A DNA stretch of 34,938 nt from Anaerolineales bacterium. Its GTDB lineage: Bacteria > Chloroflexota > Anaerolineae > Anaerolineales > UBA6663. Shown piece after piece: positions 26,624 through 29,046 of this stretch. The notes beneath the pieces are model-generated. The model had not been told where the DNA came from. It ran no database searches and saw nothing but the letters and a program-made list of their open reading frames with translations. Where the stretch lies: NCBI GenBank assembly GCA_020845955.1, contig JADLEU010000247.1, positions 1 through 34,938 of the forward strand, written 5' to 3'. Made by a program: the position numbers and the translations under genes. Each line of letters starts with the position of its first letter. Within the stretch, counting starts at the first letter, position 1.

Positions 26624-26902
26624 TTACCTTGCGGCCGTCGTGCCGCTAGTGTCGGCTGGCGGGGGCATGGTGCCGCCGCCGGTGTTGAAGCGGTAGACGA
26701 TCCGGCCGCGCGTCAGGTCATACGGCGAAAGCTCCACCTTGACCCGGTCACCCAGCAGAATGCGGATGTAGTATTTGCGCAGCCGCCCCGACAGATAAGC
26801 CAGCACGGTGTGGTTGTTGTCCAGTTGTACCCGAAAGGTGGTGCTGGGCATGGCCTCAATGACCGTGCCCTCGACGACAATCTTCTCTTCTGTCTTCGCC
26901 AT
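26624..26902 (-). CDS. infA: Translation initiation factor IF-1, C-terminally extended
   Basis: 92 residues, about 20 more than the usual ~72. The OB-fold is complete: [66 protein letters not shown]. The extra tail is Gly/Pro/Thr/Ala-rich ([18 protein letters not shown]) and probably disordered. IF-1 occupies the ribosomal A site during initiation. It begins five bases after the stop of the S1-like gene on the same strand, so both are co-translated; infA is more often found near rpmJ-rpsM or adk. AGGA lies three bases before the ATG. Confidence 0.95.
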
Positions 26903-26907
26903 TCGTC

Positions 26908-28116
26908 CTAAGCCTCGTCCTCTTCCCGCGCCCCAACCGCTGACTCTGCCGCCGCGGCCTCATGCTCGACTGAGTTCACGTTCTCACCGGCCTCGGGCTC
27001 GTCTGGCTCGGGAGGCAATGGCGAGTCGGCGTCTTCGTCATACGCCGTGTCGGATAACACCGCCTGGAGCGCCAGCCCGATACGCTGGCGCTCCGGCTCG
27101 ACGTTCAAGATGCGCACGCGCAGCGTGGCGCCTTCCACCACTCCGGGTCGGTTGGCAATCTGGTTGGTGGGCAGCAGACCTTCCACGCCTTCGCCTAGGT
27201 CCACAAAGGCGCCGAAGGGGGCCAGCCGCGTCAGCGTGCCTTCCACGATCTGGCCGGGCTGGAACCGGTCGCCCACGCGCTGCCACGGATCGGGTTGGCG
27301 GCGCTTCAGGCTCAGGCCGATGCGCTTGCTCTCGCGGTCGACTTTGAGCACTTCCACTTCCACGGTCTGGCCCACGGCCAGGATCTCGCTGGGGTGCTTT
27401 ACCCGCCGCCAGGAAAGCTCAGAAATATGGATCAGGCCATCGGCACCGCCCAGGTCTACAAAGGCGCCGAAGTCCCGCAGACCGGTGACCGTGCCGGTGC
27501 GCACCTGGCCCTCGGCCAGGTCCGACAGCAGGCGCGCCTTCTGCTTCTCGCGGTATTCCTTCTGGGCGTTGCGCTGCGAAAGCACCAGCCGCCGGCGCTG
27601 GCGGTCGACCTCGATCACCTTGAAACCCATCCGGCGCCCGACCAGCTGCGCCAGGCGGCTCTGCCGCTCGTTCTCGGGCACGCCGCGCGGCAAATCGGTG
27701 ATGTGCGACACCGGCACGAACGCCTGCACGTCGCCAAACTGCACGATCAGGCCGCCCCGGTTGTAGCCGGTGACCGACCCTTCCCACATCTCGCCGGCGG
27801 CCATTAGGCGCTCGGCGGTCAGCCAGTCCTTCTGCTGCCGGCCCTGGTTGACCGAGACGCGCAGGTTGCCGTCTTTGTCCTCGGGCTCGATGACAACGAC
27901 CGGCACTTCCTGGTCGACCTCAAAGCTGACGCCCTCTTCCCGCAACTTGTCGAGCTCGGCGCGCGGAACGACCCCATCGCGTTTCAGGCCTAGGTCGACG
28001 ATCATGCCCTGGGTGTCAAGGGCGACAACCCGGCCGGACAAGACGTCCCCCCGCTGCGGACGCGGTGTGGCTTCCGAGCCTTCAAACAGCGTCTTGAAGT
28101 CTTCTGACTCGGCCAT
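26908..28116 (-). CDS. rpsA: Four-S1-domain ribosomal protein S1-like protein
   Basis: 402 residues from the ATG at 28114-28116; the frame is open to 28194 but that overlaps the leader terminator. Four S1/OB repeats: ~20-92 ([20 protein letters not shown]), ~107-175 ([20 protein letters not shown]), ~190-258 ([40 protein letters not shown]), ~275-345 ([20 protein letters not shown]). The third repeat is the best match, and the first two are the ribosome-binding type. A ~50-residue acidic tail follows ([20 protein letters not shown]). Four repeats is the count seen in many non-proteobacterial S1 proteins. It helps mRNA docking on the 30S subunit. The only SD-like sequence (GAGG) is 14 bases before the ATG. 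Expression appears to be governed by the leader at 28139-28218. Confidence 0.9.
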
Positions 28117-28138
28117 CGTGGCTAAACCATCCTCGACC

Positions 28139-28218
28139 AAACAAAAACTCGGCGATGTGCCAACTGACTTGGCGCGCCGAGTTGCCTGGGTCAAATCGTG
28201 CGAGGTGAAAACAACTCG
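28139..28218 (-). promoter_or_regulatory. rpsA leader attenuator: antiterminator and terminator helices
   Basis: Minus strand, within the predicted ~175-base leader. Terminator: AACTCGGCG/CGCCGAGTT (arms at 28175-28183 and 28146-28154), with an inner GCCAA/TTGGC helix (28169-28173 with 28159-28163), followed directly by TTTTTGTTT (28139-28147). Upstream, CGAGTTG (28212-28218) is the exact complement of CAACTCG (28178-28184), which overlaps the terminator's first arm. Only one of the two helices can form. This is the layout of transcription attenuation in front of rpsA-infA; the signal is unknown. Confidence 0.7.
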
Positions 28219-28297
28219 TAATTATCTCATCTCTGCCGTGTTGCCCCACAACCCAGACTGCGCCGTTTCGCGCGGCTCATACTAGATGAGTAGGTGC

Positions 28298-28326
28298 ATT
28301 ATACAACCCGCTTATTTCAATGTCAA
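28298..28326 (-). promoter_or_regulatory. Consensus promoter of rpsA-infA
   Basis: Minus strand: TTGACA (28321-28326), 17 bases, TATAAT (28298-28303), a perfect match. The start near 28291 gives a leader of about 175 bases. Confidence 0.9.
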
Positions 28327-28440: not shown

Positions 28441-29046
28441 ATGCCTGACCCACTGCCCTCCCTCCGCGAGCGCAAGAAGGCCGCTACCAAGGAGCGGATC
28501 TACTTCGAGGCGCTTGGTCTTTTTCGCCGGCGCGGTTTTTCCAAGACGACCATCGAGGACATCGCCGAGGCGGCTGGAGTGTCCAAAGGGACCTTCTTTA
28601 ACTACTTCCCCACGAAGGAGGCTCTGCTGCAGCATCTGAGCGAGCGCCAGGCGCAGGCCACCGCCGCTCAACTGCAGATCGTCCTGCTGCAGCCCGAGAG
28701 CACCACCCGCCAGCGGTTGGAGCGGCTGCTGCTGGCTCTGACCGCTACCGTGGAGGCCGACCGCGAGCTCACGCGCGTGGCCGTCTTCGAGTTCCTCAAA
28801 GCCCCGGCCGCTCTGGCCGCTAACCCTTACCGCAACCTCTTCCGCCAGGCCGTCGGCGCGCTGCTGGCCGAAGGGCAGCGGCGGGGCGAGGTGGCTCATG
28901 ATCTCGATCGCGACCTGCTGTCCAGCGCCGTCACGGGCGTGTATTTTCAGCAGATCTTCGAATGGTGCGCCGCGCCCGCGCCCTACTCGCTCAGCGCCCG
29001 CCTCGGCCAGTTACTCGACATCCTGTGGCGCGGGGTGGAGCGCTGA
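28441..29046 (+). CDS. TetR-family transcriptional regulator
   Basis: 201 residues. The N-terminal HTH is clear: RERKKAATKERIYFEALGLF, RRRGFSKTTIEDIAEAAGVS, KGTFFNYFPTKEALLQHL (helix-turn-helix at about residues 38-57). The C-terminal ligand domain (TVEADRELTRVAVFEFLKAP, LLSSAVTGVYFQQIFEWCA) is all-helical, as usual for the family, and gives no ligand. No Shine-Dalgarno is seen before the ATG. It is first in a plus-strand run with a glycosyltransferase and an ABC exporter (37 bases to the next gene), so it most likely regulates its own operon, releasing DNA when it binds an exported compound or a related signal. The direct repeats just upstream are candidate binding sites. Confidence 0.9.
   Translation: MPDPLPSLRERKKAATKERIYFEALGLFRRRGFSKTTIEDIAEAAGVSKGTFFNYFPTKEALLQHLSERQAQATAAQLQIVLLQPESTTRQRLERLLLALTATVEADRELTRVAVFEFLKAPAALAANPYRNLFRQAVGALLAEGQRRGEVAHDLDRDLLSSAVTGVYFQQIFEWCAAPAPYSLSARLGQLLDILWRGVER

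Follow-up and report, generated by a model that had tools for sequence, protein, structure and literature searches.

The leader of an S1-type ribosomal protein gene and its neighbour infA, encoded on the minus strand of an Anaerolineales bacterium (Chloroflexota), has a strong promoter and, beyond it, a hairpin of the kind that stops transcription. It has the appearance of an RNA switch, not named before, by which the amounts of S1 and of translation initiation factor IF-1 are set. The promoter and the terminator are conserved, the terminator covaries, and the combination is confined to the lineage of this S1 gene, here named S1-A to denote the S1 gene linked to infA. On balance, we consider it rather probable that the S1-infA operon has here a leader acting in cis by transcription attenuation, which terminates by default and is probably subject to feedback by a product of the operon. 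The features found in the analysed stretch of 34,938 nucleotides, hereafter the window, are collected in Table 1.

Table 1. Features of the S1-infA operon and its leader, in positions of the window.
Feature	Position	Strand	Remarks
infA, translation initiation factor IF-1	26624..26902	-	TIGR00008 112.3 bits, cut-off 61.15
S1-A gene	26908..28116	-	402 aa, four S1 domains; ATG at 28116
Terminator U-tract TTTTTGTTT	28139..28147	-	tail score 4.63
Intrinsic terminator hairpin, outer stem 9 bp and inner stem 5 bp	28146..28183	-	stem covaries in relatives
CGAGTTG segment of the initial annotation	28212..28218	-	model R1 has a U-rich stretch at that place
ATGAGATAAT element	28221..28230	-	identical in L003, the 88% orthologue
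Candidate antiterminator strand GGCGCAGTCTGGGTTG	28249..28264	-	complementary to CAACTCGGCGCGCC of the terminator 5' arm; prediction only
5' hairpin CTCAT-ctagt-ATGAG, at the transcript start	28276..28290	-	counterpart CTCATctaggATGAG in L003
Sigma-A-type promoter TTGACA-17-TATAAT	28298..28326	-	12/12 consensus; predicted start ~28290

The two genes had been described as a fused rpsA-infA unit, but they are adjacent and separate, the infA start codon at 26902 lying 5 nt past the S1 stop codon, which ends at 26908. Nor is this the only S1 gene: the genome holds three of the S1 type, one in the window (contig C247) and the others on contigs C156 and C220. No IF-1 gene other than the infA of the window, which sits behind S1 and beside prmA, dnaJ, and dnaK, turned up in the genome, and the assembly yielded no 16S rRNA gene. 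Among about 100 Anaerolineae loci, nearly all carry a same-strand infA downstream of S1-A, and within the family of the window S1-A occurs at high identity in only two of six genomes (100% and 88%). The S1 paralogues of this family have short leaders, without terminator and without infA, and in the genome of the window the long, terminator-bearing leader is found at the infA-linked gene only. As for 20 S1 genes from outside the class, none has infA beside it and one has both promoter and terminator. At L162, outside the class, the start codon of an S1 gene that lacks a neighbouring infA is preceded by a 12/12 promoter and by a hairpin resembling a terminator, which may be due to chance or represent a parallel case.

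Regarding the layout of the leader, the perfect sigma-A promoter proposed in the initial annotation was confirmed, with the -35 box at 28326-28321 and the -10 box at 28303-28298 of the minus strand, separated by a spacer of 17 nt, and from the predicted start the leader extends for ~145 nt to the terminator. The complete intrinsic terminator said to lie between promoter and ATG is present as well: its outer stem is formed by AACTCGGCG (28183-28175) and CGCCGAGTT (28154-28146), its inner stem by GCCAA (28173-28169) and TTGGC (28163-28159), and the hairpin, of -19.9 kcal/mol, is followed immediately on its 3' side by the U-tract, as is characteristic of the sequence of intrinsic terminators. The upstream neighbour at 28441 is a divergent, TetR-like gene on the plus strand, and because it runs the opposite way the terminator serves no upstream gene; the window has no minus-strand gene upstream to which the hairpin could belong. 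This TetR-family gene (28441-29046) is retained beside the leader in L003 (58%) and was not seen at the other orthologous loci.

The promoter-terminator layout is common to most Anaerolineae relatives of the window. In a scan of one collection of 80 loci, a promoter matching at least 11 of the 12 consensus positions was present within 400 nt of 76 of the 80 S1-A genes and of 6 of the 222 other open reading frames drawn as controls from the same loci, none of which (0/222) had promoter and terminator together. The leader set was composed of 98 non-identical S1-A leaders, each with a promoter of at least 11/12, and in 66 of them a strict intrinsic terminator lies between the promoter and the start codon, compared with 8.6 expected from dinucleotide shuffles, which is more than chance would give. 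The remaining 32, about one-third, fail the strict definition, some of them through a weak tail only, as exemplified by L046, L069, and L073, in which a similar hairpin is kept with a weaker tail. The median tail score is 4.30 and the median hairpin energy -19.5 kcal/mol, and the pairing probability of the terminator stem in the full leader has a median of 0.94 over the 66. In other words, a conserved terminator stands between the promoter of the operon and its first start codon, which is the arrangement of an attenuation leader.

Closer relatives retain more of the leader than these two elements. In L003, the promoter, the 5' hairpin, ATGAGATAAT, and the terminator are all retained, and in the inner stem GCCAA has become GCCGG opposite TTGGC, with pairing preserved via G-U, while L112, which comes from another family and has 60% identity, retains the promoter and CAACTCGGC...GCCGAGTTTTG. 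The covariation sought for both helices was found for the terminator: its arms covary in every leader group tested (0/2000 permutations), and 7 of the 11 pairs of the stem have changed on both sides among 16 leaders by pair counts, figures that are inflated to some extent by kinship among the leaders.

A covariance model, R1, built on 16 leaders from another Anaerolineae group, was searched against 345 kb from 64 sources outside the training set at E up to 10, and 24 of its 25 matches fall in S1-A leaders, that of the window included. The match on the window spans 28137-28215 of the minus strand and is weak, with 13.1 bits and an E of 0.012 in a 69-kb search; similarly weak scores fall at the terminators of L112 (10.0 bits) and L003 (8.9 bits). 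Because these weak scores occur at the expected places and nowhere else in those sources, we take the terminator element to be homologous across the class and the rest of the leader to have diverged strongly in the order of the window. A class-wide scan with R1 matched 2 of 150 genomes, but it scored only the best 16 candidates per genome under strict filters that drop weak matches, and it was not used to describe distribution. As to named RNA families, none in Rfam 15 exceeded its gathering threshold in the window or in 20 orthologous loci, which agrees with the initial annotation; the sole trace was a sub-threshold isrJ match on the opposite strand. Known riboswitches and ribosomal protein leaders, such as L10_leader, L20_leader, and others, were rejected on this basis.

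The part of the earlier reading that did not hold is the specific switch, in which CGAGTTG was supposed to pair with CAACTCG of the terminator and exclude its fold. The 7-base complement does exist, between 28218-28212 and 28184-28178 with 27 nt in between, but a perfect complement of at least 7 arises by chance with P = 0.11 in shuffled leaders, and the helix is missing in L003, in which the longest perfect complement is only 5. Moreover, over the 66 leaders the upstream sequence shows no excess of complementarity to the terminator 5' arm (mean z -0.06; three with p < 0.05), and CGAGTTG was dropped as a conserved antiterminator on these three grounds. What stands of the attenuator reading is the class-wide succession of promoter, leader, and terminator before S1-infA.

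A different segment, at 28264-28249, is a better candidate in the window and its nearest relatives. Its duplex with the terminator 5' arm has a predicted energy of -23.2 kcal/mol (p 0.03 against shuffles). As long as the 3' arm does not yet exist, the 5' arm of the window is predicted to pair upstream with a probability of 0.85 (shuffle rank 0.025), the corresponding ranks being 0.05 in L003 and 0.0 in L112. In the order of the window, its own combinations of upstream segment and arm are matched by only 4 of 2000 permutations; within the trio of the window, L003, and L112, swapped combinations are as good as their own, and there is no covariation. We put forward as a hypothesis, drawn from folding predictions, that 28249-28264 of the window, like an upstream segment in L003 and L112, may act as an antiterminator. 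With the 3' arm in place, folding predicts the terminator as the default, with a probability of 0.96 in the window.

The mechanism that we favour would then proceed as follows. RNA polymerase would start at about 28290, make the leader of ~145 nt, and reach the terminator at 28139-28147, which would form by default, so that S1 and the only infA would be reached solely by polymerases that read through. The read-through fraction would be regulated, presumably by a product of the operon, and either S1 or IF-1 could act on the leader; excess S1, acting on the U-rich or structured leader in negative feedback, is the most likely regulator, since ribosomal protein leaders as a rule serve autogenous repression. 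In the closest relatives of the window, an upstream segment may act as an antiterminator by holding the 5' arm of the terminator. That transcription terminates there in vivo, that read-through is regulated, and that the product feeds back are all what the leader's sequence leads us to expect; precedents for attenuation among ribosomal protein leaders are given in PMC10931766 for L4, L10/L12, and L20.

In other Anaerolineae groups the leader contains a second conserved helix, P1, formed between its first 10-25 nt and the sequence that directly follows the U-tract, as in L071 (GACTCTGG with CCAGGGTC) and L042 (CTACGG with CCGTAG). P1 is possible only in read-through RNA, in which it encloses the terminator hairpin, and it may thus add a translational layer of control in these groups. 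It covaries in 35 other Anaerolineae leaders, whose own pairs are reached by permuted partners in 0 of 2000 trials. Taken jointly over 16 leaders, terminator and P1 are 90% paired, with 10 of 20 pairs changed on both sides and a covariation score reached by none of 500 shuffles and by no slid version; in a second group of 12 leaders, 4 of the 11 pairs of P1 have changed on both sides and the score is again reached by 0/500. The permutation test is the stronger evidence, because the columns used for the pair counts were picked from the very alignments scored and the permutation test used no picked columns, and kinship raises the P1 figures, too, to some extent. In the order of the window, P1, the strongest structural mark of regulation, is not detectable (1858/2000 permutations), which counts against the attenuation reading. 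The conserved structured RNA expected of a ribosomal protein leader is therefore present in the relatives as covarying P1 and terminator, whereas the order of the window shows the terminator part only.

A more far-reaching proposal, which we advance tentatively and hold to be somewhat less than an even prospect, is that the leaders form an undescribed, Anaerolineae-wide RNA family that senses S1 (or IF-1) and exerts control at two levels, namely at termination and, in the read-through RNA of many relatives, at translation via a helix between the 5' end and the sequence before the Shine-Dalgarno. If true, this would be the first S1 attenuator known to us and the first leader linking the dosages of S1 and IF-1. 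In gammaproteobacteria, S1 is described as regulating its own translation, and how IF-1 amounts are set is understood mainly for model species; a conserved S1-IF1 attenuator would mean that another lineage came to control S1 through transcription termination, and it would couple two initiation proteins, including the only IF-1 gene of the genome, in one switch. In addition, the leader is a small RNA on which binding and termination can be assayed directly, and it gives a little-studied phylum a candidate RNA family that Rfam lacks.

Among known systems, the Bacillus subtilis leaders of L20 (infC-rpmI-rplT) and L10 (rplJL) are alike in being long ribosomal protein leaders with a terminator before the first start codon, and the L20 operon also holds an initiation factor gene, like S1-infA; attenuation by the product, which those leaders have (PMC10931766), is proposed here. 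The S1-infA leader differs in its genes, in having no Rfam match, in that its antiterminator and protein site are putative, and in that P1 of the Anaerolineae relatives joins the 5' end to post-terminator sequence. The L4 attenuator of the Escherichia coli S10 operon shares the single leader terminator hairpin with its U-tract and a possible dual control of transcription and translation; however, L4 binds defined leader sites and works with NusA. The autoregulated rpsA of gammaproteobacteria has the same first gene and structured leaders, and the Anaerolineae leaders L117 and L120 likewise lack a Shine-Dalgarno, but there the control is translational and no leader terminator is described in the accessible portion of PMC10931766. 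Premature rpsA 3' ends, due to termination or processing, were reported in stationary-phase E. coli (PMC10687069) and are not the equivalent of a leader attenuator. Twenty novel ribosomal leader candidates, elements of the same kind obtained by comparative genomics, were reported by Eckert and Weinberg in 2020 (PMC7247131), and the main text of that article mentions neither bS1, rpsA, infA, nor Chloroflexi. In the open-access literature, neither an attenuator for S1 nor an S1 leader from Chloroflexota came up, and an earlier description elsewhere is possible.

The strongest rival is that the hairpin with its U-tract is a translational operator, in which S1 would block initiation by binding the U-rich stretch and structured leader of the message that encodes it. 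In gammaproteobacteria S1, a binder of single-stranded RNA, does repress its own mRNA, and in E. coli this autocontrol is translational (PMC10931766). This rival owes its rank to P1, which covaries and draws the hairpin into the structure of the mature mRNA, and to L117 and L120, in which the terminator-like hairpin and a U-rich stretch, UUUU(A/C)UUUAAUG, abut the start codon without an intervening Shine-Dalgarno. A (C/T)CC-N2-4-GGGG element, which could mask the Shine-Dalgarno and lies ahead of the start codon in Anaerolineae leaders L042-L095, occurs in 42 of the 98 leaders and points the same way; CUCCC, the first nucleotides of several leaders, is also complementary to GGGGG. However, the U-tract comes directly after the stem and has terminator-grade scores (median 4.30), the median hairpin energy being -19.5 kcal/mol, and the order of the window keeps the terminator while P1 and the GGGG hairpin are undetectable; we consider the operator unlikely.

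Two further readings, about equal to each other, are improbable. The terminator could be melted by IF-1 (and cold-shock proteins), which would place the only infA, sitting behind the hairpin, under IF-1 or cold-shock antitermination, and E. coli IF1 is indeed an antiterminator in vivo and in vitro according to a review that cites Phadtare 2007 (PMC3017892). Such melting is not sequence-specific, though, and would need neither a covarying P1 nor conserved leader elements, and the first gene is S1, not infA. Alternatively, the terminator may merely lower the output of a very strong promoter by a constant proportion, without any regulator, as would suit a default terminator fold and an antiterminator that is not conserved class-wide, but conserved leaders of 100-300 nt, the covarying P1, and elements outside the terminator exceed what this would need. 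Both are less convincing than the attenuation leader.

Very improbable is another sensor, be it a peptide encoded in the leader, a riboswitch for a small molecule, or a boxA-like motif bound by NusB/S10, as no riboswitch family matches and the 5' motif GATCTTTAAGG of L048, L054, L059, L069, and L086, despite its resemblance to the boxA consensus for NusB/S10, GYTCTTTAANA (PMC5725501), is confined to one set of relatives, covaries as the 5' strand of P1, and is absent in the window. The putative leader peptide MSRAKRRSLGCGATRQR was refuted, the open reading frame in the leader of the window stopping after 4 codons in L003.

Finally, a conserved U-rich, CGTGYTTGTT-like stretch is found in the middle of Anaerolineae leaders (alignment A3, columns ~73-91), and model R1 aligns the mid-leader U-rich region to GTTGTTTTC of the window.
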